Source: Phenylobacterium deserti
Lineage (GTDB): Bacteria; Pseudomonadota; Alphaproteobacteria; Caulobacterales; Caulobacteraceae
DNA length: 64,000 bases
NCBI GenBank assembly: GCA_945874825.1
Contig: CAMCIK010000009.1
Location: 1 to 64,000, forward strand
Direction: 5' to 3'
Shown here: positions 18,054 to 33,474 of the stretch, piece after piece
Numbering within the stretch: position 1 is the stretch's first letter
Layout of the letters: each line of letters begins with the position of its first letter
Made by a program: the position numbers and the translations under genes
The notes under the pieces: model-generated
Database searches by the model: none
Told to the model about the DNA's origin: nothing
Seen by the model: only the letters and a program-made list of their open reading frames with translations

Positions 18054-18173
18054 GTGGCGGGCCGTTTGTCGGCAAAGCCATTTCACGTCACCCTCCTTGA
18101 AGCCGTCCGTTTGGATCTCAAGCCCGAGGTCGAGGAGCTTGAGAGCTTGGGGATGGCCGTCCAGGGCCCCTGA
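18054..18173 (+). CDS. Possible 39-residue small protein or gene remnant
   Basis: In the 360-bp interval between rhodopsin and the TonB receptor, a short frame runs from GTG 18054 (AGAAGG just upstream) to TGA 18171-18173. The product contains KPFHVTLLEAVRLDLKPEVE, which reads like real protein rather than noise, but I do not recognise it. It could be a small protein or the 3' end of a lost gene. The rest of the interval (18174-18293) shows nothing beyond the receptor's ribosome site. Confidence 0.3.
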   Translation: MAGRLSAKPFHVTLLEAVRLDLKPEVEELESLGMAVQGP

Positions 18174-18293
18174 CAAGCCCCGACCAGACACCTTGCTCAC
18201 GCCGGCGCGACACGCTCGCGGGCCGTCCGGTCGGCGGCCCTTCGACAAGACTCGCAGGCTCGTGCGACCCCGTCTCTTAAATGAGGACTACCC

Positions 18294-20663
18294 ATGTTGC
18301 TTCAGGCCTTTCGTGCAAACCGGAAATCCACCCCCATCGCCCTGAAGTCGGCGATCATGGCGGGGGTTTCCGCCTGGTCTCTGATGGCTGCGGCCGCCCA
18401 GGCCCAGGGGCGCGTACCCGACACAGGGTTTCTGGTCCCTGAGATCATTGTCACCGCCCAAAAGCGGGAAGAAAACGCCAACACCGTGCCCATGTCGATC
18501 ACGGCTGTGACCGGCGAACAGCTTGTACGCACCGGTGTCAAAGAGGTCCGCGACCTGACCAAGGTCTCGCCGGGCTTCAGCTATGCCGACTCCTACGTGG
18601 GCTCGCCGATCTATACCCTTCGGGGCATCGGCTTCAGCGACATCAGCCTGGGGGGCCGATCCACCGTCAGCCTCTATCTCGATCAGGCTCCGATCCCTTT
18701 CGCGATTGAGGGGCGGGGGGTCATGATGGACCTTGAGCGCGTCGAAGTGCTGAAGGGGCCCCAGGGCACATTGTTCGGCCAGAACGCCACGGGCGGTGCG
18801 ATCAACTTCATTGCGGCAAAGCCCACCCCGGGCTTCGCGGCCGGCATTGGTGCCAGCTATGGAAGCTTCAATGCGCTGGACCTGACAGGTTTCGTCAGCG
18901 GGCCTCTGTCAGAGACGGTGGGCGTACGCCTGGCCGTTCAGGCCATCAGGTCGGATCCCTGGCAGAGGGGCTACACCACGACCGGGGAAAACGGGGCCGA
19001 CGATCTTCAAAGCGCACGCCTGACGGTAGCTTGGGAACCCACGGCCCAGCTGAAGGTTCAGGTGAGCCTCAACGGTTCAATCGACAAGTCCGAGGGTCAG
19101 GCCGGCCAACTGATCGGCATAAGCCCAGCCCTGCCGGGCGCAGCGCCCTTTGTTCCGGGGCTCCTGACCTACCCACTGGCTCCGGCCACGTCCCGGGCGG
19201 CGGATTTCAATCCCGGGGTAGACTACGGCAAAGACAACCGGTTTCGTCAGATTTCGGCGCGTGTCGATTATCAGTTCTCCAACGGGATTATCCTGACCTC
19301 GATCACGAGCGGTAGCCGCTTCGACCAGGACCAGTTGCTGGATATTGACGGCACCACGCTGTCCAACTTCAGTCGCGACACAACAGGTAAAATTGAGTCC
19401 TTCTCTGAGGAACTTCGGATCTCCGGGGATCTGAACGGAAATCTGAAATACACGCTCGGGGCAAACTACTCGGCTGACGACGTCAGGGAATTCAGTCTGA
19501 ATGATTTCTCTCAAAGCAGTCAGGCGCTTTTGTTCACGGGATTTGGGCTCCCGGCCCTGAAGGGATTTGGCGACTCCAATAATCAGAAGACGGATACGCA
19601 GGCCATATTTGCCAGCGTCGACTACGCGATAAACGAAGACGTCAATCTGACGGGCGGGGTGCGCTATACCCGGTCGAATAATGATTTTGAGGGGTGCACG
19701 TCGGATCCGGGAGATGGCAGCAGTTCGGCGGTCTTTGGTCCCTTCTGGAACTCGTTCCGGGCCCAGATGGGAATGCCCCCAAACCCGCCGATCGCGAAGG
19801 GTGGGTGCATAACGGCCAATGCCGAGATCGCCCCTGAACTGGTGGTGGACAGTCTGAATGAGACCAATGTCGCCTGGCGGGTCGGCGCGGAATGGACGCC
19901 GCGCGAGCGGACCCTGCTCTATGCCAATGTCAGCAAGGGCTATAAGGCCGGTGGCTTTCCGTCGCTGGGAGGGACGTCGGCAAGCCAGTATCAGCCGGCA
20001 ACCCAGGAGTCCGTTCTGGCCTATGAGGCGGGCTTCAAGACCACCACGACCAATCGCAGGCTGCACATCGACGGTGCCCTTTTCTACTATGACTATCAGG
20101 ACAAGCAGATCCTGGGGCGCGTGCTGGACCCCCTGTTTGGCCCCCTGCTGCAGATGATCAATGTGCCGAAGTCCAGGGTCGCGGGCGCTGAGCTTCAGGC
20201 CAGCTGGTTCCCCCTCGAGGGACTGAGTGTCACCACCGGCGTGTCCTACGTCGACTCTGAAGTGCTTGATGACTTCGTGAACTACAATCCGGACGGGGTC
20301 CTGACCAATCTGGGTGGGGAAGCGTTTCCCAACACGCCCAAATGGCACGCTGTTGCCGATATCAACTATGTCTGGCCGATCGGCGGTCGTCTCAATGGCT
20401 TTGTCGGCGGCGGGGTAAACTATCAGGGCGAGACCAATAGCCAGCTGGGCGAGCTGCCGTCACTCAATGTGAAGGCCTATACCCTTGTTGACCTCCGTGC
20501 CGGCGTCGAAAGCCAGACCGGGAACTGGCGCCTGTGGGCCTGGGGCCGGAATGTCGGGGATGTCTACTACTGGACCGCCGCCAACCGTAACCTCGATACC
20601 ACCGTGCGGTTTACCGGCCGTCCGGCGACCTACGGCGTTTCGGTCGGCTACCGGTTCCAGTAG
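18294..20663 (+). CDS. TonB-dependent receptor
   Basis: A 789-residue outer-membrane receptor with GAGG before ATG 18294. It has a signal peptide ending AAAAQAQ and a TonB box EIIVTAQKREE near residue 50. The plug domain includes YTLRGIGF and VEVLKGPQGTLFGQNATGGAINF. The C-terminus is aromatic (VGYRFQ), as in a beta-barrel end. Members import siderophores, vitamins, sugars or other large molecules using TonB energy. No neighbouring inner-membrane transporter indicates the cargo. It lies 360 bp downstream of proteorhodopsin; a link between light energy and TonB-driven uptake is attractive but unproven. Confidence 0.93.
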   Translation: MLLQAFRANRKSTPIALKSAIMAGVSAWSLMAAAAQAQGRVPDTGFLVPEIIVTAQKREENANTVPMSITAVTGEQLVRTGVKEVRDLTKVSPGFSYADSYVGSPIYTLRGIGFSDISLGGRSTVSLYLDQAPIPFAIEGRGVMMDLERVEVLKGPQGTLFGQNATGGAINFIAAKPTPGFAAGIGASYGSFNALDLTGFVSGPLSETVGVRLAVQAIRSDPWQRGYTTTGENGADDLQSARLTVAWEPTAQLKVQVSLNGSIDKSEGQAGQLIGISPALPGAAPFVPGLLTYPLAPATSRAADFNPGVDYGKDNRFRQISARVDYQFSNGIILTSITSGSRFDQDQLLDIDGTTLSNFSRDTTGKIESFSEELRISGDLNGNLKYTLGANYSADDVREFSLNDFSQSSQALLFTGFGLPALKGFGDSNNQKTDTQAIFASVDYAINEDVNLTGGVRYTRSNNDFEGCTSDPGDGSSSAVFGPFWNSFRAQMGMPPNPPIAKGGCITANAEIAPELVVDSLNETNVAWRVGAEWTPRERTLLYANVSKGYKAGGFPSLGGTSASQYQPATQESVLAYEAGFKTTTTNRRLHIDGALFYYDYQDKQILGRVLDPLFGPLLQMINVPKSRVAGAELQASWFPLEGLSVTTGVSYVDSEVLDDFVNYNPDGVLTNLGGEAFPNTPKWHAVADINYVWPIGGRLNGFVGGGVNYQGETNSQLGELPSLNVKAYTLVDLRAGVESQTGNWRLWAWGRNVGDVYYWTAANRNLDTTVRFTGRPATYGVSVGYRFQ

Positions 20664-20825: not shown

Positions 20826-21257
20826 TCAGCGCTTCTCTGCGCGGAGCGAGTCGCGGATTTCGGTCAGCAGGGCCTCAGAGGGGGTCGGGCCCGGCGCCGG
20901 GACTTCAGCGGGCTTCATCAGCTTGTTGGCCACACGGACCAGCTGGAAGATCACGAAGGCAATGATCAGGAAATTGATCAAGACGGTCGCGAAATTGCCA
21001 AAGCCAAGCATGGGCACACCGGCAGCCTTCAAGGCTGCGTAGTCGGTCAAGGAACCCGTGTAGGCTTCAGGGACTTTGCCGAGGATCATGAAGTGGCTCG
21101 AGAAGTCGACACCACCGGTGATTGCGCCGATGACCGGCATGATCAGATCATCGGTCAGCGAGGTCACGATCTTGCCGAAGGCCGCGCCGATGATGACGGC
21201 GACAGCCAGATCGAGGACGTTGCCGCGGGAGATAAAGGCTTTGAATTCCTGGAACAT
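20826..21257 (-). CDS. mscL: Large-conductance mechanosensitive channel
   Basis: A 143-residue protein from ATG 21257, which has AGGAG seven bases upstream; an ATG at 21263 sits too close to that site, and the longer frame to 21347 is unneeded. It begins [21 protein letters not shown], the standard MscL start, with TM1 [20 protein letters not shown], a periplasmic loop and TM2 [21 protein letters not shown] charged C-terminal helix follows ([11 protein letters not shown]). It opens under membrane tension to release solutes on osmotic downshock and is located in the inner membrane. It is the last recognisable resident gene before the island. Confidence 0.96.
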
Positions 21258-21410
21258 TCGCATTCTCCTGTCAGCGCTCAGACCTACGGGTGAGCACCAT
21301 TGAAATGAGCGCCATGGGCCAGCCGACTTAAAGGCGGATCGGGTCATGACTATGGGCGATCAGGTTCGTGCCCAATCAACCGCTGCCGTATCTACCCGTC
21401 GATGAAATTT

Positions 21411-21563
21411 TTACCAGTCGATAAGCTTGGCGAATTTGTCCGGCGACGGCAGGGGGGTGTTGCGCCGGGCCGTGATCGACGGCTCCGAGGGAATGTCCTT
21501 ACCGACTGCGCTGTCGAAGGGTGCCCACGTGAACGCGATGAGAGACACCGCAAGGGCCGCCAT
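21411..21563 (-). other. Unassigned sequence left of the island, with a 50-residue frame
   Basis: The interval 21258-21697 holds no recognisable gene. On the minus strand a short frame from ATG 21563 to TAA 21411 gives a hydrophobic start (AALAVSLIAFTWAPF) followed by a polar tail ending PSPDKFAKLIDW. This could be a signal-peptide fragment of a lost secreted protein. It carries on into the broken GNAT repeat in another frame. I cannot name it. Confidence 0.25.
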
Positions 21564-21697
21564 CTGTTCGTTCGTAACGAGGCGCCTGCTTGGCTGGGCC
21601 GTCCTCGGTCGGGTCGGAGCGCGTAAGCTCCGTGAGGGAGGCCCGCCCTGCCTGCGTCCGAACTGGAATCCACTGAGCTTGCCCAAAAAGAGCACAG

Positions 21698-22072
21698 GTA
21701 GTTGGGATCGCCTGTGAGGATGCAGCCTCGCGCCTCTCGGTCCGAGAGCCAACGCTTGGCCTCGGCGATGAGGGCACCACCGACGCCCTGTCGCTGCAGC
21801 GCCGGCTCCACCGAGATGGGGCCCAGCCCGAACCACCCCGCCTCACCGCTCTCGTGGGTGACCGGGGAGAGGGCGACGTGACCGACGACTTCGCCCTGGT
21901 GTTCCGCCACGAGCGACAGGCTGAGCGCGCCCAGGTCGCGCAGGATGCTGATCAAATCCTGCTCGTTACCAGCGGCGAAGCGCATGGGCGCGAAGGCCCT
22001 GCGGGTCAGATCGTAGATGGCGGGATGATCTGTCTCGACCTCAGGCCGGATCCGGATCGCCGGGGGCTTCAT
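21698..22072 (-). pseudogene. Truncated GNAT acetyltransferase (left copy)
   Basis: The start codon at 22072 and about 124 codons match the intact GNAT gene at 28755-29264 almost residue for residue (RPEVETDHPAIYDLTRRAFA; GWFGLGPISVEP). The match stops at GDPNY, after base 21698. Beyond that, the frame runs on into unrelated sequence to 21392, so the last 45 or so residues of the real protein are missing. Part of the acetyl-CoA-binding fold is lost, and the native promoter region is replaced by island sequence. A functional product is unlikely. Confidence 0.88.
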
Positions 22073-22080
22073 GTCTGGAA
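21698..22080. repeat. Direct repeat, left copy, 383 bp
   Basis: Bases 21698-22080 match 28890-29272 in the same orientation over the full 383 bp with no indel and about 12 substitutions counted by eye (about 97% identity). It begins inside the GNAT gene (GTAGTTGGG) and ends just past its start codon. It bounds the phosphate/polyphosphate island on the left. Confidence 0.9.
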
Positions 22081-22126
22081 TTGTGCAATCCCTTTCTGAG
22101 CAACGCCACTGTAGACCATCGGAGTC

Positions 22127-23464
22127 CTACCAGCGGACTTGTCCAAACAGGCCCACTTCGTCGTATGTGCCGTCGATCGATCCACCAATGGGACCGTTGC
22201 TGGTCGAAAGCGTACCGCCGTTGACCTTTTCACGTTTGTAGACCAAGGCGAAATCGACAATCTGTGTCGGGCTGAACTGCACGCCAATATTTCCATAATC
22301 ACCCGTCTCGGATGGCAGGCCATCCCGGCTTGGCCTCATATGGTCATACCGTCCGAACACGCTCCACTTCGGTGCCGGACGAACCGAACTGAAGATCGAA
22401 TAGCCGGTGGCCTTGTCGGGGGTCGGGACGGTGACCTGCTTAAAGTTTCTGGCCTGAAAAAATTCACCACCGACCATAAACATAGGGTCTTGATAGGCAA
22501 CGAGAGCCGATACCCGGTTCGCAGTATTGTACGTTTCGGTCCCGAACGTGTCCTTGGCGAGATTTCCTGAATAGCCGCCTAACCCCAGGGTGAAACCCTT
22601 GTACTGGGCTGAGACTCGCCCCTCGTAATCGACAGATTGAGAGAATTTGGGTTGGCGGTAGCCGCCGCCGTTGATGGCGGATGCCTGATAGCTGACGATG
22701 CCGCCAGCAAGCGTCCCCATCACATGCAGGCCCCAGTCAGACGATGTCGCGAAAGAGGTGCGATCAGCGATCGTGTTTTCGATGTGCCGATAGCCGTAGA
22801 TGTTTTCGACAAAGGGAACCCAGGACGTGTCGGCCGCGCCAATGCGAACGATAAAAGCAGGATCAAGTTTGGCTTCAAGATAGGCTTTTTTGATGTAGAG
22901 GCCGTTACCAACTATGTTTCCATCGTTTGGTCCGACAACGGGTGCCACATCAGTTGTAATATTGGCAGTATAAATGTCATTAAACTTGTGGTCTATTCCA
23001 ATATAGACGCGTTTTATAAAAAATCCTTCGCCTTTTTCAGTTCTTTCTCCATCAACTTCGCGCTCAATAGTACTCATATTATAGTAAATTCGCCCACTTA
23101 TCTTCGTCTCATCATACCATTTGGCCGGGGCTTTCGGCGGATTCGCTGACGCGGTTTCGATCTTCTCCAGCGATGGGTCGCCCTGCGCGACGACCGCGGC
23201 AGACCCGGCAGCAACCGCTGCTGGGCCCACCGCGACGACAGCTGGGGCCCTTGCCGTTGCAGCCGCAGGCGCTGTCGTGGCACGCGTCGCCGCATCCTGC
23301 GCATCGAGACGCGCCGTAAGGGCCGCGATCTGTTCCTTGAGCAGGCGAATTTCCTCGGCCTGCTGAGCGGCCGCGTCTTTCGGAGCCGCGGTGGCCAAGG
23401 CTGGCACCGCAACCAGACCCATTGTGAGGGCTGCGCTGGCCAAAAGCCTGGTCTCGATCCTCAT
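22127..23464 (-). CDS. OprO/OprP-type phosphate-selective porin
   Basis: A 445-residue outer-membrane protein from ATG 23464. The signal peptide runs through LLASAALTMGLVAVPALATA; it is followed by a short coiled coil (AEEIRLLKEQIAALTARLDAQ) and an Ala-rich linker, then a beta-barrel with alternating aromatic strands such as KISGRIYYNM and FFIKRVYIGIDHKF, ending FGQVRW. This is the architecture of the phosphate/pyrophosphate-selective porin family. It should let phosphate or polyphosphate through the outer membrane, which fits the PPK2 and PiT genes next door. Codons around 22900-23100 are markedly AT-rich compared with flanking chromosomal genes. Confidence 0.8.
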   Translation of the reverse strand: MRIETRLLASAALTMGLVAVPALATAAPKDAAAQQAEEIRLLKEQIAALTARLDAQDAATRATTAPAAATARAPAVVAVGPAAVAAGSAAVVAQGDPSLEKIETASANPPKAPAKWYDETKISGRIYYNMSTIEREVDGERTEKGEGFFIKRVYIGIDHKFNDIYTANITTDVAPVVGPNDGNIVGNGLYIKKAYLEAKLDPAFIVRIGAADTSWVPFVENIYGYRHIENTIADRTSFATSSDWGLHVMGTLAGGIVSYQASAINGGGYRQPKFSQSVDYEGRVSAQYKGFTLGLGGYSGNLAKDTFGTETYNTANRVSALVAYQDPMFMVGGEFFQARNFKQVTVPTPDKATGYSIFSSVRPAPKWSVFGRYDHMRPSRDGLPSETGDYGNIGVQFSPTQIVDFALVYKREKVNGGTLSTSNGPIGGSIDGTYDEVGLFGQVRW

Positions 23465-23582
23465 GCTGAAACCCGCTTTCCGGTTTGGGGCCGCTAGGCT
23501 AGGCCGAGCCAAGGCGACCCAGCAAAAGCCAAGCGCCAATACTGTCATCGGACGATCAAACATTCCATTATACTATAGTTTT

Positions 23583-24506
23583 TCAGTAACGCCGCGGGAC
23601 GTACAGATCGGGGGGTACAGGATGGCGGACATAGCCTTCGTGACGTTCGCGCTCGGGCAAGACAATCTCGGGCTGTTCGATATCCTCATAAGGGATTTGA
23701 TCGAGCAGATGCGAAATGCAGTTCAAACGCGCGCGCTTCTTGTCGTCACCATCCACGACCCACCAGCGGGCCTCGGGGATATGGGTACGCTGGAACATCT
23801 CCTCCTTGGCAGCGGTATAATCCTCCCAGCGCCGGCGGGACTCCAGATCCATCGGCGACAGCTTCCACTGCTTGAGCGGATCGTGGATGCGCATGTTGAA
23901 TCGGAATTCCTGCTCTTCGTCACTGATCGAAAACCAGTATTTGATTAGCACAATCCCCGATCGAACCAGCATTCGTTCGAATTCAGTCACATCGTTGAAG
24001 AAGTCTTCAACTTGCGTCGGCGAGGCAAATCCCATGACCCGCTCTACACCGGCACGGTTGTACCAACTGCGGTCGAACAGCACGATTTCACCCGCGGAAG
24101 GCAGGTGTGCGACATAGCGCTGGAAATACCATTGGGTTCGCTCGCGTTCACTGGGTGCCGGGAGGGCGACGACGCGTGCCACGCGCGGGTTGAGGCGTTG
24201 GGTGATCCGCTTGATCGACCCACCCTTACCTGCCGAATCCCGGCCTTCAAATAGGACCAGGACCTTCAGTCCTTTGGACTGTACCCAGCTCTGCAAGCGC
24301 ACCAGTTCGTGTTGTAGCCGAAACAGTTCCTTGAAGTAGCCCTGCCGAGCCTTCGCCTGGGCCTCGGGGTCGGCGGCCATGTCATCGAGCAACCCCGACA
24401 TGCGTTCGTCGTCGAACTCAAGCTCAAGTTCCTCGTCGAAACTGTCGGCAACCTCGGCTTTTACGCGGGCCAGCATCGCAGCGTGTTCGGCATCATCCTC
24501 GGTCAT
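23583..24506 (-). CDS. ppk2: Polyphosphate kinase 2
   Basis: A 307-residue protein from ATG 24506, which has GAGG five bases upstream. After an acidic N-terminal stretch (DEELELEFDDERM) comes the PPK2 core: Walker A VLFEGRDSAGKGG, PSERERTQWYFQRYVAHLPSAGE, the Walker B and lid region LFDRSWYNRAGVERVMGF, and WYNR/RWEDY segments. Single-domain PPK2 enzymes use polyphosphate to phosphorylate ADP or GDP (class I) or AMP (class II). The class cannot be fixed by eye, though the length fits class I. It lies between the porin and ZntB/CorA-like genes on one strand, suggesting an operon for phosphate acquisition and polyphosphate use. Confidence 0.95.
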   Translation of the reverse strand: MTEDDAEHAAMLARVKAEVADSFDEELELEFDDERMSGLLDDMAADPEAQAKARQGYFKELFRLQHELVRLQSWVQSKGLKVLVLFEGRDSAGKGGSIKRITQRLNPRVARVVALPAPSERERTQWYFQRYVAHLPSAGEIVLFDRSWYNRAGVERVMGFASPTQVEDFFNDVTEFERMLVRSGIVLIKYWFSISDEEQEFRFNMRIHDPLKQWKLSPMDLESRRRWEDYTAAKEEMFQRTHIPEARWWVVDGDDKKRARLNCISHLLDQIPYEDIEQPEIVLPERERHEGYVRHPVPPDLYVPRRY

Positions 24507-24548
24507 GGCATCCTCGCAAGCTTTGTGAAATCCGGGCAAGAGTGGCGC

Positions 24549-25568
24549 TCAACGTCCATTGCGAAAATAGCCACGTCGAAAAAGCCAGGCGACGGCGGCA
24601 ACGGTCGCCAGGATCATCACGCAAGTGACCCAAATGGTGCCAACGTTGTCGTCAACCCATGCCAATCCACCTGTATTCATTCCGAAAAAGCTCGTAACGA
24701 GCGTAGGTGGTAGCAATACGACATTCATCATCGACAGAACGTACAAATTCTGGTCAGTACGGCGCGCGGTCTGCATATCGATTTCTTCGCGTACCTGCTG
24801 TAGGTTTTGGTGAACTTCTGCCGCGTCGCCATCAAGAGCGGCAATTTTTTGAGCCGTTTTATTCACGATTGGCCGAATGGCCTCGGGTAAGTGGTCATCG
24901 AGTTCGAGCCTGAGCAAGATGGATCGCAGGCCAAGGAGTTGGCGATGCAGCGTGGCCGCGCGCCGCCTATCGTCCGCAACGACGCGGGGGTCGGGCATGG
25001 TTCCAAAATCGATCAGGGCGTCTTCGGCAACCCGGACAATAGTCGCCAGATCGCGCGCAACGGTTTTTGACACCTCGATCAGCGCGCTGAACACCAGGTC
25101 CAGCGCCGCAGGTGCGCCAGCAGGCACGGCACCAGCCTGGATGCGGCGCAGGATCACGTCGGGGCAAAGAAGCAGATTTCGCCCCGCGGTGACCATCAAC
25201 TGAGGGGCGAGGAGAAAGATCAAAACGCCCGTTCGCGTCGGCCGACCTTCACCGAACTCGCGTTCGAAATCATGGACGGCGAATGCCAGGGTATCGCCGG
25301 CCCGCCGCACATGTTGATGTCCGTCGCCGTCAAGGAGCATGTCGGCGATGTCACCTTCGACGGCCGGCAGGTCGTCGATCCAGCGCCGCGCCGCCGGATT
25401 CAAAAGGTCCATATGAACCCAGCGGAAAGCGTCGGGTTCGGCTGGGCAATCAAGGTCGGCGAGGGTTACCGGAGTGGACTTGCCATCACAGAAATCAAAT
25501 GCCCAGACCATTCCTGTCAGGGATCCCGGAGTGCCACGATCGATCACCGTTGTGCTGGCACCGAGCAT
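24549..25568 (-). CDS. CorA/ZntB-family metal ion transporter
   Basis: From ATG 25568 the protein is 339 residues, close to the usual ZntB length; the frame extends upstream to 25736 but would overlap the PiT gene. A long cytosolic domain (WVHMDLLNPAARRWI; EVHQNLQQVREEIDMQTARRTDQ) leads to two C-terminal membrane helices. The pore signature GMNTGGLAW follows TLVTSFF. The GMN motif marks the CorA superfamily; the TGG extension is more like ZntB, a zinc transporter, than Mg-specific CorA. Metal choice is uncertain. A divalent cation carrier beside PPK2 and PiT may serve metal-phosphate balance. Confidence 0.88.
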   Translation of the reverse strand: MLGASTTVIDRGTPGSLTGMVWAFDFCDGKSTPVTLADLDCPAEPDAFRWVHMDLLNPAARRWIDDLPAVEGDIADMLLDGDGHQHVRRAGDTLAFAVHDFEREFGEGRPTRTGVLIFLLAPQLMVTAGRNLLLCPDVILRRIQAGAVPAGAPAALDLVFSALIEVSKTVARDLATIVRVAEDALIDFGTMPDPRVVADDRRRAATLHRQLLGLRSILLRLELDDHLPEAIRPIVNKTAQKIAALDGDAAEVHQNLQQVREEIDMQTARRTDQNLYVLSMMNVVLLPPTLVTSFFGMNTGGLAWVDDNVGTIWVTCVMILATVAAVAWLFRRGYFRNGR

Positions 25569-25663
25569 TGCACTGTCTTGTCTTGCAGTGGCCTGATCCT
25601 CCGGGCTTTGGGTCCGGATTGGATCCTGCGCGCCGAGTGGCCTCCGGGACACAAACCTTCTCC

Positions 25664-27286
25664 TCAGCCGATTTGCGAGAACAGCCAGTAGAGGCTTCCT
25701 GACAGCAGCATCGCCGCCGGCAGCGTCAGAACCCACGCCAAAGCCAGGCTGCGGATTGTCGACATTTGCAGCCCCGACCCATTGGCCGCCATGGTGCCGG
25801 CGATACCTGATGAGAGGACGTGGGTGGTCGAAACTGGCAGCCCCAGGCCATCAGCAACGCCGATCATGCCAGCGGCGACAATTTCGGCTGAGGCACCCTG
25901 GGCATATGTCAGGTGGGTCTTACCGATCTTCTCGCCGACGGTGACCACAATCCGCTTCCAGCCGACCATTGTGCCAAGCCCAAGGGCGATGGCGATGGCG
26001 ACCTTCACCCAGGTCGGGATGAAGTGGGTCGCGGCGTCGATACCGGACTTGAAATCTTTCACAGCGGCTTGGCCCGCAGCATCTAGATTGAGGTTACCGG
26101 TTTTCTTCAGCACTCGCAGCGCTTCGGAGGCGATGTACAGCGAGCTGCGCAGGTCAGCGATCTTATCGTTCGGAATGGCTTCGACCGTACCGAAGCGAGT
26201 CGTCTGTTGGCCGATGTCCTCGATCATCGCCGCCAGCGCAGGGAGGGTTTGCGGGGTGAGCGTGCGCGTTTGCAAATAAGTTGTCACGGTTTCCTGCGGC
26301 GGTTCGACCACCACAACGCCCTTGCCCAGGGCTCGGACGGCCGTCGCTGCCTTGTTTGCGGTCGCTTCGAAACCGGCGATCGCCGCGGGTGGCATATCCC
26401 GGCTGATGGCATAGGCCGCGGGGGCCACACCGATCAGGATCAGCATAATCAGTCCCATACCCTTCTGGCCATCGTTGGAGCCATGAAAGAAGGACACCAG
26501 CGTGCAGGTAAAGATCAGAAGGCTGCGGATCCACAGCGGCGGCGGAGCCTTGCCAACCGGGGCCTGGTAGAGCGCCGGGGCTTTGACGACCGATTTCAAG
26601 ATCAGCAGCAAGGCAGCGGCGGCGACAAACCCCATGATGGGTGAAATGAGCAGGGATAGGCCGATTTCTCGAGCCTTCCCCCAATCGACGCCCGATGTAC
26701 CCTGTCCATAGTGCATCAGCTGGTTGGCAATGCCCACCCCGATGATCGAGCCGATCAGCGTATGCGACGACGAGGCGGGCAGGCCGAGCCACCAGGTGCC
26801 GACATTCCAGATCACTGCGCCAACCAGCAGCGCAAAGACCATGGCAAAACCCGCACCCGAGTCGGCCTGAAGGATGAGTTCGACCGGCAACAGCGAAACG
26901 ATGCCGAAAGCGACCGCACCTGACGCAAACAGCACCCCGAGGAAGTTCCACAACCCCGACCAGACCACCGCAACCGTCGGGGGCAAGGCATGGGTGTAGA
27001 TCACCGTCGCAACGGCGTTGGCGGTATCGTGAAATCCATTGACGAATTCAAAGCCGAGCGCGACCAGCAGGGCAATGCCCAGGAGCAGTACCGCGCCCGA
27101 CGCAAGCCCGCTGACGCCAGCACCGGCGAGGTCTTGCGAGACACTCCAGGCGACGAAACCAAGCCCGGCTAGCAGCAGCCCAAGGAAGGCAAATGTCCCG
27201 ACTCGCCCCATCCCCTTATCGAGATCGGGCCGACCCTCAGACATTCCGGGGTCGATATACCCAAGGTTTATATCTGCAGTTGACAT
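25664..27286 (-). CDS. PiT family inorganic phosphate transporter
   Basis: A 540-residue membrane protein with GGAGA upstream of ATG 27286. The duplicated PiT signatures are clear: GFEFVNGFHDTANAVATVIYT near residue 78 and YAQGASAEIVAAGMIGVADGLGLPVSTTH in the C-terminal half. A second GSNDGQKGMG segment and about ten hydrophobic helices are present. A hydrophilic stretch (LTPQTLPALAAMIEDIGQQ) divides the two halves. It couples phosphate, often as a metal-phosphate complex, to H+ or Na+. It is upstream of the zntB-like, ppk2 and porin genes on the same strand, giving a coherent phosphate uptake and storage cassette. Confidence 0.95.
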   Translation of the reverse strand: MSTADINLGYIDPGMSEGRPDLDKGMGRVGTFAFLGLLLAGLGFVAWSVSQDLAGAGVSGLASGAVLLLGIALLVALGFEFVNGFHDTANAVATVIYTHALPPTVAVVWSGLWNFLGVLFASGAVAFGIVSLLPVELILQADSGAGFAMVFALLVGAVIWNVGTWWLGLPASSSHTLIGSIIGVGIANQLMHYGQGTSGVDWGKAREIGLSLLISPIMGFVAAAALLLILKSVVKAPALYQAPVGKAPPPLWIRSLLIFTCTLVSFFHGSNDGQKGMGLIMLILIGVAPAAYAISRDMPPAAIAGFEATANKAATAVRALGKGVVVVEPPQETVTTYLQTRTLTPQTLPALAAMIEDIGQQTTRFGTVEAIPNDKIADLRSSLYIASEALRVLKKTGNLNLDAAGQAAVKDFKSGIDAATHFIPTWVKVAIAIALGLGTMVGWKRIVVTVGEKIGKTHLTYAQGASAEIVAAGMIGVADGLGLPVSTTHVLSSGIAGTMAANGSGLQMSTIRSLALAWVLTLPAAMLLSGSLYWLFSQIG

Positions 27287-27479
27287 GACTTGATCTCCAG
27301 ACTGCGACGATTGCTTGGTTTTTTTTACAGTCCGTTTGTGACACCCCGTTTGCGTTCCTTGGTAACTGTCCTCGCGCGGTATTCTGTTGGTGGGGAGGCT
27401 TGGGGCGGGGCGGGGCCTTGCGCGGCTTCGCCAAGCTCAGCCTGCGCAGATCTCCGAATCTAACCAGACGCAACCCGCG

Positions 27480-28562
27480 CTAATCGCGCTCGCCGACCCT
27501 CGCCGCCGTCGGCGGCTCGTCGCTGTCCTGCGTCATCGCTGCGACCAGCCGGGCATAGTTGAATGTCGATCGACTGCCGATGTCGTCACCATGCTTGCCG
27601 AGCCATTCGTCGGCCGCCGCACGCCCGAGCGCCTTCAACTTGATCAGGAACGCCTTTTCGGCGAGCAGCTTCGAGGAGGGCGGGAAGCGGCCAAGCTCGT
27701 CATCGCCATGTATCATGTGGAGGTTGATGCGCGGGTGGAGGTCGCCCGAAAGCTCACCCTTGTCGATCAGCCGGTTGCGTTCGCCGATGAAGCGCAATTC
27801 GCTGACGAGACTGGCGTTGAAGGTGATTTCGTTCAACCGGTCCGCGATTTCGTGCGCGGTCCGCGGTATCTCGTTGCGCACAATCGGGTTCAACTGGACG
27901 ATCAGGGCGTCACTGCACCCGGTGGCCCGGCTCATCGGCTCCAAAGCCGGGTTGGCGATATAGCCGCCGTCCCAATAACCTTCGCCGTCGATGATCGGCG
28001 TGTGGAACAGATACGGCAGGCACCCCGATGCCAGCACCATGTCGACGGTCAGTTCGTGCTCGCGAAAGCACCTGAGCCCACCGGTGGCCACATGGGTGGT
28101 GTTGATGAACAGCTTGACCTTGCGGCTTTTGCGGACGCGCTCGAAATCGATCAGTGCGTTCAACGCATCGCGCAGCGGGTTGAGCTCGAACGGGTTGGCG
28201 ACGTAGGGCGAAATCATCCGCGAGATCGCCAGGCTCATCTGGTACATCGGCGAGAAATTCAGCGAATAATCGTCGGTCTGCTGCTGCCAGAGCGTGCGCT
28301 GGAACGGCGACATCCGCGCAGCTGCATCGCCAATTCCGAGCCAGAAATGGTCGAGCTGCGCCCGGGCATGCGCGGCGTCGCCCTCCATCAGGCCTTCGCC
28401 GCAGACCACGGCATTCATTGCGCCGGCGCTTGTGCCGCTGATGGCGGCGATTTCGATGTCGTCTTCCTCGAGCAGGCGGTCGAGGACACCCCAGGTGAAG
28501 GCGCCGTGGCTACCGCCGCCCTGCAAGGCCAGGTTGATCTGCCGCTTTGTCTTCTTTGCCAT
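27480..28562 (-). CDS. Patatin-like phospholipase
   Basis: A 360-residue protein from ATG 28562, with AAGGA eight bases upstream. The patatin features are the oxyanion motif ALQGGGSHGAF, the nucleophile GTSAGAM (G-x-S-x-G) and the catalytic Asp in YWDGGYIANP. There is no signal peptide or membrane helix, so it is likely a cytosolic acyl hydrolase. Patatin-like genes in alphaproteobacteria often precede 3-hydroxybutyrate dehydrogenase, and a stump of that gene lies just upstream here, suggesting a link to polyhydroxybutyrate or lipid turnover in the donor genome. About 190 bp without a gene separates it from the PiT gene. Confidence 0.92.
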   Translation of the reverse strand: MAKKTKRQINLALQGGGSHGAFTWGVLDRLLEEDDIEIAAISGTSAGAMNAVVCGEGLMEGDAAHARAQLDHFWLGIGDAAARMSPFQRTLWQQQTDDYSLNFSPMYQMSLAISRMISPYVANPFELNPLRDALNALIDFERVRKSRKVKLFINTTHVATGGLRCFREHELTVDMVLASGCLPYLFHTPIIDGEGYWDGGYIANPALEPMSRATGCSDALIVQLNPIVRNEIPRTAHEIADRLNEITFNASLVSELRFIGERNRLIDKGELSGDLHPRINLHMIHGDDELGRFPPSSKLLAEKAFLIKLKALGRAAADEWLGKHGDDIGSRSTFNYARLVAAMTQDSDEPPTAARVGERD

Positions 28563-28593
28563 CTTTGCTTCCTTGCTCGGTGCGCGTGGGGTT

Positions 28594-28695
28594 CTAATGC
28601 GCCGTCCAGCCACCGTCGACGGGAATATTGGCACCGGTCAACTGCGCCATAGCCTCCGAACACAGGAACACCGCGAGGGCGGCGAACAAGAGCGC
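28594..28695 (-). pseudogene. 3' fragment of 3-hydroxybutyrate dehydrogenase
   Basis: About 34 codons ending at TAG 28594 read FLCSEAMAQLTGANIPVDGGW then TAH, the standard C-terminus of short-chain dehydrogenases of the 3-hydroxybutyrate dehydrogenase type (FLCS-D/E-A...TG-x3-PVDGGWTA). The upstream two-thirds, including the NAD-binding site, are absent; sequence beyond about 28695 belongs to another context. The fragment marks where the island was cut on its right side. Confidence 0.7.
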
Positions 28696-28754
28696 CGGTT
28701 CCCGATGGGGGGGCGGAGGTGTCTGCTTCCCGGCAGGCTCGGCGCGGCACCCGC

Positions 28755-29264
28755 TCAGGCGTGAAAGGCCGGGTGAAAGCGGAACCGACCGGCCGGGAGG
28801 GTGCCCGCCAGGGACAGGACCATGAAGTACTCCGGTGGCTCAGCCTCCGGCGCGTGCTGCGGCGCGGGCAGGAACCCATGCCGGGGATAGTAGTTGGGAT
28901 CGCCTGTGAGGATGCAGCCTCGCGCCTCTCGGTCCGAGAGCCAACGCCTGGCCTCGGCGATGAGGGCGCCGCCGACGCCCTGTCGCTGCAGCGCCGGCTC
29001 CACCGAGATGGGGCCCAGCCCGAACCACCCCGCCTCACCGCGCTCGTGGGTGACCGGGGAGAGGGCGACGTGCCCCACGACCTCGCCCTGGTGTTCCGCC
29101 ACGAGTGACAGGCTGAGCGCGCCCAGGTCGCGCAGGATGCTGATCAAATCCTGCTCGTTACCAGCGGCAAAGCGCATGGGCGCGAAGGCCCGGCGGGTCA
29201 GATCGTAGATGGCGGGATGATCTGTATCGACCTCAGGCCGGATCCGGATCGCCGGGGGCTTCAT
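28755..29264 (-). CDS. GNAT family N-acetyltransferase (intact copy)
   Basis: A 169-residue acetyltransferase. After an N-terminal strand (IRIRPEVDTDHPAIYDLTRRAF), SLVAEHQGEVVGHVALSPV forms the central sheet. LGPISVEPALQRQGVGGALI carries the Q-x2-G-x-G/A acetyl-CoA loop, and GDPNYYPRHGFLPA completes the fold as in YhbS-like N-acetyltransferases. The substrate is unknown. It is complete here, whereas the copy at 21698-22072 lacks the last third. It lies 33 bp from tRNA-Thr. The start, with no strong ribosome site, is the same ATG as in the left copy. Confidence 0.92.
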   Translation of the reverse strand: MKPPAIRIRPEVDTDHPAIYDLTRRAFAPMRFAAGNEQDLISILRDLGALSLSLVAEHQGEVVGHVALSPVTHERGEAGWFGLGPISVEPALQRQGVGGALIAEARRWLSDREARGCILTGDPNYYPRHGFLPAPQHAPEAEPPEYFMVLSLAGTLPAGRFRFHPAFHA

Positions 29265-29272
29265 GTCCGGAA
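28890..29272. repeat. Direct repeat, right copy, 383 bp
   Basis: This is the right partner of 21698-22080, same orientation and same length, lying within the intact GNAT gene and 8 bp beyond its start. The substitutions are spread along the repeat, with some silent, so the duplication is not brand new. Confidence 0.9.
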
Positions 29273-29297: not shown

Positions 29298-29373
29298 TGG
29301 TGCCGCCTAGGTGACTCGAACACCTGACCTACGCATTACGAATGCGCCGCTCTACCGGCTGAGCTAAGGCGGC
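29298..29373 (-). tRNA. tRNA-Thr (anticodon CGT)
   Basis: The minus strand folds into a full cloverleaf. The acceptor stem is GCCGCCT/AGGCGGC, the D arm GCTC-AGCCGGTA-GAGC, the anticodon stem GCGCA/TGCGT with loop TTCGTAA, and the T arm AGGTG-TTCGAGT-CACCT; discriminator A is followed by an encoded CCA. Loop positions 34-36 are CGT, which reads the Thr codon ACG. It sits directly right of the island but the direct repeats do not include it. Confidence 0.96.
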
Positions 29374-29410: not shown

Positions 29411-30925
29411 CTACTTAGCGTCTCGCGGCGGTCTCGCCAAGCGGCGACGCACGGGCGGGGGGACAGGCGGGGGTGGAGCAGCATCAGACTCGTCGTCTTC
29501 CTCGCCCTGCAGGCCCTCGCCGATGGGGAAGGGCACCGAAGCCTCGAAGCCGGAGAGGTCCTGCTCGGCATAGGACATGGGCAGGTCCGGCAGGTCCGAC
29601 AGGCCGGGCTCGCGCCGCTCGTGCCGGGGATGGATGAGGTCGCCGGTCTCAGCAAAGCTGACGGCCAGGCGAGCCCAGTCGGCGGGCTGGTAGGCGAAGG
29701 CCCGGCCCTCGGGGTCGAGGTCCGACCAGTCCGCCTCGCCCGGCGCCGTCAGGCCCCGGGCCCGCCAGAGCCGGGCCTCGTCGGGACGCCCTGCGGCGAA
29801 GGCGGCGCGGGCCAGGAGGCCGGCGATCCGGGCGGTCAGGGGCTCGGCCTCCAGGCCCCGGCCCAGCTCCGCCGCCCGGGCAGCGTCACCGGCGGTGAGG
29901 GCCGCCTCGACGGAGAGGACGCGCGACTCCCGGGCGCCAGGATTGAGGGCGGCGAGGGCGGACAGGCGGGCGGCCCGCTCGCGCGGGGTTTCCTGGGTCT
30001 TCAGGTCGCGCAGGGCCAGCCAGAGGGCGGGGTGCGGGGCGGCCTTCCAGGCGGCCTCGATCACCTGGGTAGCGCGGCCAGCCTTGCCCTGGGCGGACAG
30101 GAGCCGGGCGGCCATGACCACGCCGGGGGCGAAGCCAGGCTGGAGGCGGGCGGCCTCCAGGGCATAGTCGGCGGCGCGACTGCGGGCCCGGGCATCGCCG
30201 GTCAGGTCCAGCTGGGCGGCGGAGGCGGCGAGCAGGGCCGCCCGGCCCCGCTCGGCCACGTCGGGGCTGACGATGCGACGGTCCTGGCCGGTCTTGAGGA
30301 GGTCGCGGGCCGCCTCCCAGTCGCCGGCCTCGAGGTGGGCCTCCAGCAGCAGGCGCCAGGCCCAGCGGGCGGTACGCGCCAGGGCGAAGGCAGCCTCGGC
30401 TTGCTGTACGGCGCCGGCCCGATCGCCCCGGGCAAGGGCCAGGCTGGTCAGGCCCCGGCGGGCCGCAAGGCGCAGGTCCGGGAAGGCAAGCATGCCGGTC
30501 CAGGCGACTTCCGCCGCGACGGGGTCTTCCGCGGCCTCGGCGGCGCGGGCCGAGAGCAGGCGCGCCAGGGCGGGTGCCTCCACGGCGAGGTCGTTGGCCT
30601 TGGCGGCCAGCCTGAGGGCCTCGGCACCGTCGCCGGCAGCTACGGCGGTGAAGCCCCGGGTGAGGACCTCGATCTCCTGCCGGCGGCGGGACTCGGCCCG
30701 GGCAGCGGCGGCCCGGCGCGGCGTCTCGGCGACCCAGAGGAGGAGCCGCCAGGCGGCGAAGGCGAGGAAGGACGCCAGCAGGACCAGGACGATGAGGGCG
30801 GTGGCGGTCAAGTCCGCCCGCCAGCCCAGCCAGACGATGGCCACCCGGCCGGATTCCCCGGCGAGGCCGAGGGCCAGGGCGGCGGCGAGGGCGACGAGGA
30901 CGAGGAAGAGACCCGTGCGGATCAT
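29411..30925 (-). CDS. hemY: HemY-like membrane/TPR protein
   Basis: A 504-residue protein. Two N-terminal membrane helices (LFLVLVALAAALALGLA; ATALIVLVLLASFLAFAAW) match the HemY_N domain, followed by alanine-rich TPR-like repeats (ALARGDRAGAVQQAEAAFALA and similar) and a proline/arginine-rich tail. HemY (not the oxidase of the same name) is an inner-membrane protein associated with heme synthesis clusters, perhaps as a scaffold. The ATGA overlap with the COG4223 gene at 30922-30925 makes it last of hemC-hemD-COG4223-hemY. Confidence 0.88.
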   Translation of the reverse strand: MIRTGLFLVLVALAAALALGLAGESGRVAIVWLGWRADLTATALIVLVLLASFLAFAAWRLLLWVAETPRRAAAARAESRRRQEIEVLTRGFTAVAAGDGAEALRLAAKANDLAVEAPALARLLSARAAEAAEDPVAAEVAWTGMLAFPDLRLAARRGLTSLALARGDRAGAVQQAEAAFALARTARWAWRLLLEAHLEAGDWEAARDLLKTGQDRRIVSPDVAERGRAALLAASAAQLDLTGDARARSRAADYALEAARLQPGFAPGVVMAARLLSAQGKAGRATQVIEAAWKAAPHPALWLALRDLKTQETPRERAARLSALAALNPGARESRVLSVEAALTAGDAARAAELGRGLEAEPLTARIAGLLARAAFAAGRPDEARLWRARGLTAPGEADWSDLDPEGRAFAYQPADWARLAVSFAETGDLIHPRHERREPGLSDLPDLPMSYAEQDLSGFEASVPFPIGEGLQGEEDDESDAAPPPPVPPPVRRRLARPPRDAK

Positions 30926-31752
30926 GGGGCGGTCTCCTCAAGCCGGGCGAGGTCGCGCAGGGCGTGCTCGGACAGGGCGGCGGCCTGGCGGTCGAGGCGG
31001 GCCCGGGTCTGGGCGCGGTCCCACCAGGGGCGCAGGGCGTCCTGGGCGGCGGGGGGCAGGGCCGCGAGGCTGGTCAGGGCCGCTTCCAGGTCGCCTTCGT
31101 TCAGCTGGGCCTCAGCGCGGGCCAGGCGCGCATCGGTGCCGTCCCCCGCCAGACGGCCCACCGGCCGCACGACAATGACCCGCGACAGGCCTGCCAGGAG
31201 GCGGTCTCCCAGACCCGCTGTCTCGCCCGGGCGGCGGGCGGCGGCGGCAGCCAGGGCAGCGAAGTCGGGAAAGTCCCGGGCCAGGGCCGCGCGGCTGGGG
31301 ACGCCTGTGGCCGCCACGGCGGCGAAGCCGGACAGGTCGATGCCGGCGGGGGCCTGGGCCGCCACAGCGGCCAGTTCCCCGGTGAAGGGCCGTGAGGTCT
31401 GGGCGGCGGACATCAGAGCCGCAGCCGCCAGGGCCGACCGGGCCGAGGCCACCGTGCGCGTGCGGCCGGCTTCCAGGTCGTCGAGGCGGGCCTCGAGGCG
31501 GACAAGGTCCCCGGCCGGGGGCGGCGGGACGGCGGGCGCCGGAAGGTCGACGGTACGCGGCGGCGGCGCCGGGAGAATGGCGCTGGGCGCTCCGCGGCCC
31601 GGGTCCAGGGGTGCGGGCAGGCCAGGGCCGAATCGGATGAAGGCGGCGCCGGCAAGGATGGCGACCGCCCCGAAGGCGATCAGGGCCCAGAACAGCCGTC
31701 CGGCGAGGGAGGGCGCTCGGGGCGACGGCGGGGGGGCGGGCGTCTCGGTCAT
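30922..31752 (-). CDS. COG4223 family (mitofilin/HemX-like) membrane protein
   Basis: A 276-residue protein with a proline-rich cytosolic start, one membrane helix (LFWALIAFGAVAILAGAAFI) and a large Ala-rich helical periplasmic domain (RLEARLDDLEAGRT; ARAEAQLNEGDLEAALTSLAAL). The position between hemD and hemY and the layout match the COG4223 family related to mitofilin and HemX. It is probably an envelope scaffold; no enzymatic motif is visible. Both ends overlap neighbours by ATGA (31749-31752 with hemD; 30922-30925 with hemY). Confidence 0.8.
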   Translation of the reverse strand: MTETPAPPPSPRAPSLAGRLFWALIAFGAVAILAGAAFIRFGPGLPAPLDPGRGAPSAILPAPPPRTVDLPAPAVPPPPAGDLVRLEARLDDLEAGRTRTVASARSALAAAALMSAAQTSRPFTGELAAVAAQAPAGIDLSGFAAVAATGVPSRAALARDFPDFAALAAAAARRPGETAGLGDRLLAGLSRVIVVRPVGRLAGDGTDARLARAEAQLNEGDLEAALTSLAALPPAAQDALRPWWDRAQTRARLDRQAAALSEHALRDLARLEETAP

Positions 31753-32459
31753 CGCAGGGAGGCTAGCAGATTTATGAGGTCGGTTTCGAGGGGTGAAGCG
31801 GGCGCCACCATTCCCGCGAGATCCAGGCTCCCCAGGGGAGCCAGGCAGGCCGGCGAGAGACCGACCACCCGGGGCCCGGGACCCGGCCGTCCGCGCAGGA
31901 GACCAGCCCGGATCCGCGCCGCCCGGGGCGACTGGACGAGGATGCTTTCCGCCCCGAGGGCCTCCTGCAAACGGGCGGGGGCGGGGCGGGTCTCCCGGGC
32001 GGCATAGACGGCGAGCCGCCGGGCCGGCCGGCCGGCGGCGGTCAGGCGTCCGACGAGGTCGCCGGCAGGCTCCAGGGCGCCGGCGTGGACGATCTCTGCG
32101 GTGCCAGGGGCCGCCAACAGGTCCCGGGCCAAGGCCTCAACGTCGCCGCCCCCGGCGACCACGTCGACAAAGCCCGCCTGGCGGGCCGCCCCGGCCGTGG
32201 CGGCGCCCACGCACCAGACCTTCAGGTCCCGGCGCGGGGTCAGGCGGGCAAAGGCCCGGACGCCGTTGGCGGAGGTGAAGGCCAGGACGGCGGAGGGCGG
32301 GAGGGCATCAAGGGCCGGAGAGGCGTCCGCCAGGTCGGCGGTCTCGAGCAGTGGCGTGACCAGGGGGACGAGGCCAGCGGCCTCCACCCGGCGCGCGGTG
32401 GCGGAGGCGCCCGGTTCGGCGCGGGTGATCCAGACCCGGGGTGCGGCGGTGGGGCTCAT
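31749..32459 (-). CDS. hemD: Uroporphyrinogen-III synthase
   Basis: About 236 residues from ATG 32459 (an ATG at 32474 is an alternative). The protein has the poorly conserved but recognisable HemD layout: [22 protein letters not shown] at the start, [13 protein letters not shown] near residue 55, then [16 protein letters not shown] and [11 protein letters not shown] in the second half. It cyclises hydroxymethylbilane to uroporphyrinogen III with inversion of ring D. It lies between hemC (34-bp gap) and the COG4223 gene, the usual alphaproteobacterial order, which supports the call more than sequence alone. Confidence 0.9.
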
Positions 32460-32493
32460 CCTGGAGGCGAGCATGCGCGCCTGCGCCGGGGAA

Positions 32494-33474
32494 TCAATCC
32501 GGAAGGAGGATGAGGGCGCCGCCATCGGACTGGATCCGGCGGCCAAGCTCCAGGCCCAGGGCCGCAGCGGCGACGGGGCCGGCCCATGCCGTGACGCGCC
32601 CCTCGCCCCGGAACCGGTGGACGCCATCGGGGGACAGGGCCTCGACAGTCAGGACAAGGTCGTCACCCTCGATGAGGGCGTAAGCGCCGATGGCGGTACG
32701 GCAACTACCCTCCAGTGCGGCCATGGCGCCCCGTTCAGAGGACACAGCCAGGGCCGTCGGGGCATGACGCAGGGCCGCCAGCCAGGGAAGGTCGCGATCG
32801 GCCTCCCGGGTCTGGATGGCAAGGGCGCCCTGCCCCGGGGCCGGCGGGGAGTGCCGGGGATCGATGAAGCTGCGGGGCAGGTCACCCAGGCCCAGGCGGT
32901 TCAGGCCCGAGGCCGCCAAGAGGATGGCGTCGGCCTCGCCGGCCCTGAGCTTCTCCAGCCGGGTGTCGACATTGCCCCGGAGCATGCGGACATCGAGGTC
33001 GGGCCGCAGGTTCAGGCATTGGGCCTGCCGGCGAAGCGAGGCCGTGCCCAGGCGGGCGCCCTGTGGCAGGTCTTCCAGCCGTTCGGCGATGAGGCTGAGG
33101 AAGGCGTCCCGCGGATCCTCGCGCTCGGGGATGGCCGCCAGGACCAGGCCCTCGGGAGAGGCGACGGGCATGTCCTTGAGCGAATGGATGGCGCAGTCGA
33201 TCTGGCCGTCGAGCAGGGCCTCCTCGATCTCCTTGGTGAAGAGACCCTTGCCACCGATTTCCAGGAGGCGGCGGTCCTGGACCCGGTCGCCCGTTGTGGT
33301 GATGACCACCAGGGGGGCGACCCGGTCGGCGTCCTCGGGGGGGGCACCGAGGGCGGCGGCGATCCGCCTCTGCATCTGCCTCGCCTGGGCGAGGGAAAGC
33401 TTGGAGCCGCGGGCCCCGATCCGGACAGGCTGTTGCGCACGCACGACGGGAGGGCTACCTCGGCTGGAACTCAC
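32494..33474 (-). CDS. hemC: Hydroxymethylbilane synthase (porphobilinogen deaminase)
   Basis: A 326-residue protein starting at GTG 33474 (an in-frame GTG at 33444 is possible). Motifs include [58 protein letters not shown] and [23 protein letters not shown] contains the cysteine that carries the dipyrromethane cofactor. It joins four porphobilinogens into hydroxymethylbilane. It heads the hemC-hemD-COG4223-hemY unit and is divergent from tsaD across about 70 bp. Confidence 0.97.

Follow-up and report, generated by a model that had tools for sequence, protein, structure and literature searches.

Genomic islands that target tRNA genes carry an integrase, adjoin a tRNA gene, duplicate the tRNA end and have a GC content below that of their flanks. 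Homology-facilitated illegitimate recombination displays short microhomology at the non-homologous junction. Recombination of this type, leaving displaced genes behind, has been proposed for the T6SS immunity arrays of V. cholerae (PMC5361080), and displacement of rhs C-terminal sequences has been proposed to proceed through circular intermediates (PMC2935791). The locus described here is from a 64,000-nt stretch of Phenylobacterium deserti contig CAMCIK010000009.1 (the window), and shows an event of an ordinary kind that is unusually well documented. A working and a broken GNAT acetyltransferase gene surround a group of phosphate genes, most likely because relatives exchanged DNA there by homologous recombination, rather than through insertion of a mobile element.

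Pairwise alignment of the left repeat (21698-22080, minus strand) with the right repeat (28890-29272, minus strand) is gap-free, with 371 of 383 positions identical; the original prediction had placed the repeats here, with about 12 differences and no indels. Eleven of the 12 differences are in coding sequence (8 synonymous and 3 nonsynonymous codons) and one is upstream of the start codon. Dating of the left copy's loss of function by codon changes was dropped, there being only 11 coding differences. No further direct repeat of similar size was reported in a scan of 15-36 kb. The source assembly is fragmented (103 contigs), and a chimera between strains might be considered as the origin of the pair. 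However, the longest exact run shared by the repeats is 70 bp, and each junction is found again in a separate assembly, the left in relative G044 and the right in G106; a chimera is extremely improbable.

The left repeat holds 125 codons of GNAT plus 8 nt, as determined by alignment and BLAST; after codon 125 the sequence is unrelated and the 3′ end of the gene is missing. The GNAT gene on the right (28755-29264, minus strand; PF00583, 40.7 bits) is intact and encodes 169 aa, as predicted. It is separated from a tRNA-Thr(CGT) gene (29298-29373, minus strand; ARAGORN, Rfam) by a full 33-nt spacer, as in G106 and G107. The 47 nt downstream of this gene (28708-28754, minus strand) are homologous by BLAST to the GNAT-TonB spacer of G107, which is free of the phosphate genes (G107 query 1-702 corresponds to window 29408-28708). 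The right edge of the left repeat (22080) coincides with the porin/8-nt/GNAT junction of G044. The right copy represents the resident GNAT, and the left copy a displaced one. In G044 the displaced GNAT retains its full length (518-nt match) and is interrupted by stops at codons 38 and 115. Thus 383 bp is not the original repeat length, and the left edge at 21698 stems from a later, secondary truncation adjoining mscL and a fragment of an SDR gene.

The five genes between the repeats all lie on the minus strand, in agreement with the original prediction. They encode a patatin-like phospholipase (27480-28634; PF01734), a PiT-type phosphate transporter (25664-27286; PF01384, 284.9 bits), a CorA-like Mg2+ transporter (24549-25736; PF01544, 123.1 bits), polyphosphate kinase 2 (PPK2, 23583-24539; PF03976, and TIGR03707 over cut-off) and an outer-membrane, porin-like protein (22127-23563), an ORF whose name is from sequence reading only and for which searches of Pfam, NCBIfam and PDB sequences gave no hit. 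Judged by its gene families, the cassette looks like one for phosphate, polyphosphate and Mg2+ handling. GC3 is 0.60-0.82 in the cassette genes versus 0.85-0.93 in five chosen flank genes. Next to the right copy, alignments show the C-terminal relic of an SDR (3-hydroxybutyrate dehydrogenase-like) gene at 28594-28690 (minus strand, approximate edges), with a junction common to G106; the full-length SDR of G044 matches TIGR01963 over cut-off (357.8 bits). A second SDR-like fragment (21545-21600, minus strand) adjoins the left repeat and aligns at 86% to the SDR region of G044.

The accessory region continues to the left with an MscL mechanosensitive channel gene (20826-21347, minus strand; PF01741), which alignment does not place at the corresponding position in G044, G106 or G107, a TonB-dependent receptor gene (18294-20663, plus strand; PF00593/PF07715), which is found in all three, and a proteorhodopsin-like bacterial rhodopsin gene (17148-17933, plus strand; PF01036, 154.5 bits). 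Among the papers available, a literature search found none joining Phenylobacterium, genomic island and rhodopsin. The region extends as far as 16884, the edge of an aroQ-like gene (16432-16884, minus strand; name from reading), and the unit proposed originally, 21698-29272, is too short. The tRNA-Thr gene, the SDR relic by the right copy and the left edge at aroQ had been overlooked.

The tRNA-Thr gene and aroQ are fixed edges of a variable spot. A full tRNA-Thr adjoins GNAT in 8 of 10 relatives; of the other two, G052 has a partial tRNA copy and G044 has the cassette in between. The aroQ-like gene shows 93-98% identity in the same 10 relatives, on a second contig in G106, G107 and G044. GNAT and aroQ are 11.9 kb apart in the window; in 3 of 11 clade genomes (G052, G103 and G078) the interval is an 85-bp gap, and the other 8 have insertions. 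This pair of core genes encloses different gene content in different relatives, and the interval is a variable spot. Probably it is an integrase-free one in this Phenylobacterium clade.

GNAT sequence is repeated in two further relatives, around different cargo. In G077, a 280-column repeat (271 identical) reaches from the 3′ end of GNAT to the 5′ end of aroQ, with copies 3.9 kb apart. In G076, a 300-column repeat holds the 3′ part of GNAT plus about 30 nt of the downstream sequence, with copies 14.2 kb apart; the first register of the repeat finder gave 91% over 300 nt, and the 287/300 identity is with ends set by eye. Transposition was rejected because the repeats differ in length in the three genomes (383, about 300 and about 280 bp), rather than being a short target duplication of fixed length.

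A site-specific integrase element could have delivered the cassette to tRNA-Thr, with later loss of the integrase. Within the genus, the tRNA gene seems to be a target of integrases, as in G052 the full tRNA lies 11.4 kb from a 45-bp copy of its 3′ end, and the interval holds an ORF that resembles a tyrosine recombinase (a label from reading). In G044, the cassette begins 6 nt past the tRNA. However, the other edge is without a copy of the tRNA 3′ end in both the window and G044; the search that finds the 45-bp copy in G052 returns no second copy in the window. A PF00589 (tyrosine integrase) profile search gave 3 hits in the genome and none on the window's contig, and the repeats of the three genomes differ in content as well as length. 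An integrase-driven tRNA island was rejected in the absence of an integrase gene on the contig and of a duplicated tRNA 3′ end as att site, and the version with a lost integrase is quite improbable. The original claim of no integrase or transposase holds for the integrase; for transposases it was judged only from 9 Pfam-scanned window proteins, none of which matched.

The states of the locus in relatives bear on its history. G107 has the order tRNA-GNAT-TonB receptor, with one GNAT and no cassette. G044 has the cassette between the tRNA and its one, displaced GNAT pseudogene; BLAST finds only 8 and 6 nt of the 33-nt spacer at the two edges of that cassette, whereas the right copy of the window keeps the spacer in full. 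G106 has the GNAT/SDR-relic junction of the window's right side with only part of the cassette, the PiT to porin genes being absent. The window combines the left junction of G044 with the right junction of G106. None of the 10 relatives examined has both GNAT copies with the same genes between them. These key relatives are metagenome assemblies, with contamination of 6% (G106), 4% (G107) and 2% (G044), and the two TonB contigs of G107 overlap at only 93.9%. Genome searches scored the best 5, 2 or 8 candidates per genome, so that an absence in such a search carries little weight by itself; BLAST was also used for a direct comparison of the window and 14 loci from relatives. Beyond the repeats reported above, the direct comparison gave only three short matches (24-48 bp, E 0.003-0.004), taken as chance.

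The region beside the right repeat is a mosaic. At sites where G044 and G106 differ, the window in 27480-28570 agrees with G044 at 53, with G106 at 14 and with neither at 4, and in 28571-28689 it agrees with G044 at 1, with G106 at 17 and with neither at 1. None of 5000 shuffles reached this split, with sites treated as independent, and site patterns put the breakpoint near the patatin 5′ end, at 28503-28527. Recombination has taken place in or beside the flanking genes, as the patatin/SDR relic mosaic shows. Across the four species the core flanks are 93.9-95.3% identical; identity is 97% between the window and G044 cassettes (93.0 to 99.8% per 400 bp) and 97-98% between the window and G106 GNAT. 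The window is not G106-like throughout, the TonB end of G106 being 96% identical to it and the rhodopsin-aroQ part only 92%. In a GNAT tree the left, right and G106 copies form one group, with support of 90/99, below the program's mark of 95, and with the order inside the group not settled. The body of the left GNAT is 98.2% identical to G106 and 86.4% to G044, yet its 5′ junction resembles that of G044; to explain this, either gene conversion or a rapid decay of the pseudogene in G044 is required.

The history we favor, as the probable one, has three steps, all at an integrase-free spot. In the first, a state displayed by G044, a low-GC cassette of SDR-patatin-PiT-CorA-PPK2-porin would have entered the 33-nt tRNA-Thr/GNAT spacer, pushing GNAT off the tRNA, after which it would decay. 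In the second, suggested by the junctions, the cassette-bearing chromosome would recombine with a cassette-free tRNA-GNAT-TonB allele. One side would be joined by homology, in GNAT, which is common to both sides, or in the tRNA and adjoining core. The other side would have no long homology, passing about 47 nt beyond the GNAT stop into the SDR gene and cutting it to a relic; this GNAT/SDR junction is present in the window and G106, and the parental sequences are too diverged to define microhomology. The product would hold a never-interrupted GNAT at the right and the displaced GNAT at the left, and therefore a direct repeat. In the third, the left copy would lose its 3′ end beside mscL and the SDR fragment, leaving 383 bp. 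Exchange would continue later, as suggested by the patatin breakpoint and shared GNAT tracts. There is good support for integrase-free recombination between alleles, and the original suggestion of integration or duplication by homologous recombination is supported by the one-GNAT state of G107, the displaced GNAT of G044 and the window mosaic.

The SDR fragments downstream of both GNAT copies would also suit a tandem duplication within a single lineage that later lost most of one of the two units. However, a copy of a cassette-bearing allele would not have the uninterrupted 33-nt spacer of the right copy, and no second cassette was returned among the best 2 of 58 candidates scored in the genome; such a duplication is very unlikely. 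A Campbell-type single crossover of a circle with the cassette and a GNAT copy would give two full GNAT genes at once, with later losses producing the G044, G106 and window states. G077 and G076 show the same topology with other cargo, and the same step is proposed in the rhs literature, in the available part of PMC2935791. Against this, G044 would need to have lost the right GNAT independently, through a deletion with its ends inside the 33-nt spacer, and the SDR would need a truncation of its own; of 400 plasmid records with a match to parts of the cassette, none covers 80% of it. Circle integration is thus somewhat unlikely, and a plasmid origin was rejected on the same search; the PiT region is part of each of the 10 plasmid matches listed, and 3 of these also take in PPK2, with about 70% identity. 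A gene transfer agent carrier was also rejected, as GTA_TIM is not found in the 93.7% complete genome and is present in a Caulobacter control, although import from elsewhere may have occurred.

The excision originally suggested for the segment is the weaker reading. Judged by the sequence, a crossover between the two repeats would remove the sole GNAT 3′ end from the chromosome, so that a truncated GNAT stays behind, and none of the states found in relatives would be recreated. An island may thus be flanked by a long direct repeat and still not be an excisable element. A rather doubtful extension is that the GNAT gene next to tRNA-Thr serves as a portable homology arm, whereby GNAT-bearing cargo fragments might circulate among these Phenylobacterium and integrate repeatedly by host recombination alone, each leaving a GNAT-containing direct repeat (window, G076 and G077), as a RecA-driven island system without integrase. 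The genome has a ComEC-family gene, but so do 10 of 14 control genomes, and the gene is therefore no proof of competence. With three GNAT-containing repeats in one clade, integrase-free insertion is directly testable. The intermediate states in separate species show how nutrient genes can build up at one chromosomal position with no mobile element involved.

Like tRNA-targeted islands, the locus adjoins a tRNA gene and has a GC content below its flanks, but the window has neither an integrase nor a duplicated tRNA end. It shares with homologous-recombination hotspots, in the available accounts, fixed core genes around variable content, no integrase found at the spot and a mosaic flank. However, the hotspot model in those accounts is a double crossover, one in each flank, whereas here one junction is probably non-homologous and a relic of the anchor gene is kept as a direct repeat. 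The rhs displacement in the available part of PMC2935791 is similar in that insertions recur at one gene and older fragments are shifted downstream, and it fits G076 and G077 best; rhs has identical core sequences and a C-terminal tip as cargo, whereas the cargo here is unrelated between species. The V. cholerae T6SS arrays, as far as the available part of PMC5361080 describes them, have one homologous anchor, one illegitimate junction and a displaced resident gene that is kept, as is proposed for the present locus. They differ in that here the anchor is GNAT beside a tRNA, the cargo is for nutrient handling and the history comes from four genomes.

The repeat at 28890-29272 aligns with that at 21698-22080 without gaps and with 371 of 383 positions identical; the longest exact run common to both is 70 bp. 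Eleven of the differences fall in codons (8 synonymous, 3 not) and one lies upstream. An intact GNAT gene of 169 aa (28755..29264) contains the right repeat, and the left GNAT stops after codon 125. Between the repeats are five genes on the minus strand, for a patatin, a PiT phosphate transporter, CorA, PPK2 and an outer-membrane-like protein. The original prediction of an island at 21698..29272 thus described the repeats, the truncated and intact copies and the single gene orientation correctly. The outer-membrane-like protein (22127-23563, 478 aa, here termed the porin) has no match in Pfam, NCBIfam or PDB sequences. An mscL gene and an SDR fragment (20826-21697) adjoin the left repeat on its left side, and are absent from that place in the relatives G044, G106 and G107. 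Short matches to the mscL region occur at other places in G052, G053, G075 and G078.

Both GNAT copies together with the cassette genes of the window are found in none of 10 relatives in the genus, so that two copies around the same genes, a state that would argue against the predicted island if all sisters had it, are not common to them. In G107 the order is tRNA-GNAT-about 95 bp-TonB receptor, without the cassette. In G044, which is 97% identical to the window across 6.56 kb, the cassette sits between tRNA-Thr and GNAT, in the order tRNA-SDR (full)-patatin-PiT-CorA-PPK2-porin-GNAT-TonB, and the GNAT retains its full length, with early stops at codons 38 and 115. G106 displays tRNA-GNAT-SDR relic-patatin-TonB, with PiT to porin missing. 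The left copy of the window has the same porin/8-nt/GNAT junction as G044, and the right copy the same GNAT/47-nt/SDR-relic junction as G106.

These junctions also bear on the direction of events. Of the 33-nt spacer between tRNA and GNAT, BLAST alignments show no more than 8 nt at one cassette edge of G044 and 6 nt at the other, as expected for insertion into the spacer. In the window, 33 nt separate the intact GNAT from tRNA-Thr(CGT) (29298-29373) upstream of it, and the whole spacer is kept; the right copy thus derives from an allele in which this spacer was never interrupted. Past the 3′ end of this GNAT, 47 nt of the spacer that separates GNAT from TonB in the cassette-free allele are retained, and the SDR relic follows. 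The simplest reading, which we infer from sequence and did not observe, is that the cassette would have inserted into the tRNA-GNAT spacer, as in G044, and that a cassette-bearing and a cassette-free allele would then have recombined, with one junction non-homologous.

Mosaic ancestry was assayed at sites in 27480-28689 where G044 and G106 differ. From 27480 to 28570 the window sides with G044 at 53 sites, with G106 at 14 and with neither at 4; from 28571 to 28689 the counts are 1, 17 and 1. The best split, at 28503 to 28527, leaves 14 misfits among 85 sites, a value reached by none of 5000 shuffles. In the six pairs among the window, G106, G044 and G107, identity over some 2.1 kb of core flank is 93.9-95.3%. 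Both the cassette, at 97% to G044, and the GNAT copies, at 97-98% to G106, thus exceed this background identity. Over 1552 bp the TonB end matches G106 at 96.2%. The aroQ-rhodopsin part is only 91.7% identical to G106 (2899 bp), close to the values for G044 (91.0%, 3891 bp) and G107 (89.7%, 4301 bp).

The body of the left GNAT counts against recombination of two alleles, since it is G106-like despite its G044-like upstream junction. The G044 pseudogene and G106 differ at 52 sites; of these, the left GNAT body sides with G106 at 48, with G044 at 3 and with neither at 1, and the right GNAT gives identical counts. The two-allele reading would need either conversion of the left copy by the right one or a fast decay of the pseudogene in G044. 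Where the left and right copies differ (12 positions), the left agrees with G106 at 8 and the right at 4; at 6 of those 8 the right copy carries the G107 letter, a further sign of exchange.

Excision by recombination between the repeats, also part of the original prediction, is possible but not supported. It would leave the tRNA followed by the truncated left copy, with the GNAT 3′ end on the circle, breaking the chromosomal gene, and the product resembles the state of no relative.

The aroQ-like gene is at 16432-16884. The GNAT-aroQ gap is 85 bp in G052, G103 and G078, and thus 16.9 to 28.75 kb of the window is all accessory. GC per kb is 0.73-0.78 at 29-32 kb, about 0.54-0.66 at 17-29 kb, and about 0.66-0.74 again left of 15 kb. 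The genes right of the tRNA (29500-32500) have an unusually high GC of about 0.74-0.80 in 500-bp windows. The rhodopsin and TonB-receptor genes (17148-20663) are co-directional, are inserted a few nt from the GNAT stop, and are common to the window, G044, G106 and G107.

The assembly that holds the window (on contig C9) has 2.56 Mb in 103 contigs. The left-repeat region was searched against 101 genomes of the genus, and 32 gave some match. GNAT at an identity of at least 76% is found in 11 of the 101, the window's own included; the same 11 have aroQ at 93-100%, the next best being 75%. The seven closest named loci are all from MAGs, and the names of some isolates, Erken and Loclat for example, hint at lakes. 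The GNAT-aroQ interval is empty in 3 of the 11 genomes and has insertions in 8: about 1.1 kb in G109, 2.1 kb in G075, 4.0 kb in G077, 14.3 kb in G076, and inserts with the TonB receptor and rhodopsin in G107, G106, G044 and the window. The interval spans two contigs each in G106 and G044, with exact overlaps of 132 and 149 bp. The G107 pair overlaps in TonB ends (L051 5453-5796 and L032 2903-3246) that are only 93.9% identical, suggesting a second TonB copy or mixed strains.

In 8 of the 10 relatives a full tRNA-Thr is the direct neighbor of GNAT. In G052, GNAT adjoins a 45-bp copy of the tRNA 3′ end, and an element with a tyrosine-recombinase-like ORF (so labeled from sequence reading) separates this copy from the full tRNA, 11.4 kb off. 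Partial tRNA-Thr copies of 45-52 bp are present besides the full-length match in G052 (L034 14734-18595), G051, G102, G043, G048 and G088. Judged from these copies, the 3′ end of tRNA-Thr(CGT) resembles an att site in the genus.

Repeats are also found in two other relatives. G077 has a repeat of 280 columns (271 identical), made up of the end of GNAT and the start of aroQ, which flanks an unrelated insert, with intact GNAT and intact aroQ at the outer sides. In G076 the GNAT 3′ part is repeated over 300 columns (287 identical), with copies 14.2 kb apart; the GNAT of this genome is split across two contigs with 109 bp of exact overlap. Both have the form that a single-crossover insertion would give. 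Direct BLAST of 14 loci from the 10 relatives gave no further GNAT or aroQ repeats. The repeated part in G076 (L041 1668-2004 and 15863-16269) includes a stretch resembling the G077 GNAT, and the GNAT 5′ half is 95.8% identical to G109; this composition may be a further sign of interspecies exchange.

A ComEC-family gene was found in the genome and likewise in 10 of 14 control genomes, and thus its presence does not demonstrate competence. Merodiploids made by transformation are reported in pneumococcus (PMC3784515), and there are descriptions of hotspots that lack mobile elements and recombine at the core genes on their flanks (PMC5635113). Displacement that leaves relics has been attributed to homology-facilitated illegitimate recombination, as proposed for the T6SS loci of V. 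cholerae (PMC5361080), and to circular intermediates, as proposed for rhs genes (PMC2935791). The locus described here is a new and well-resolved case of this kind.
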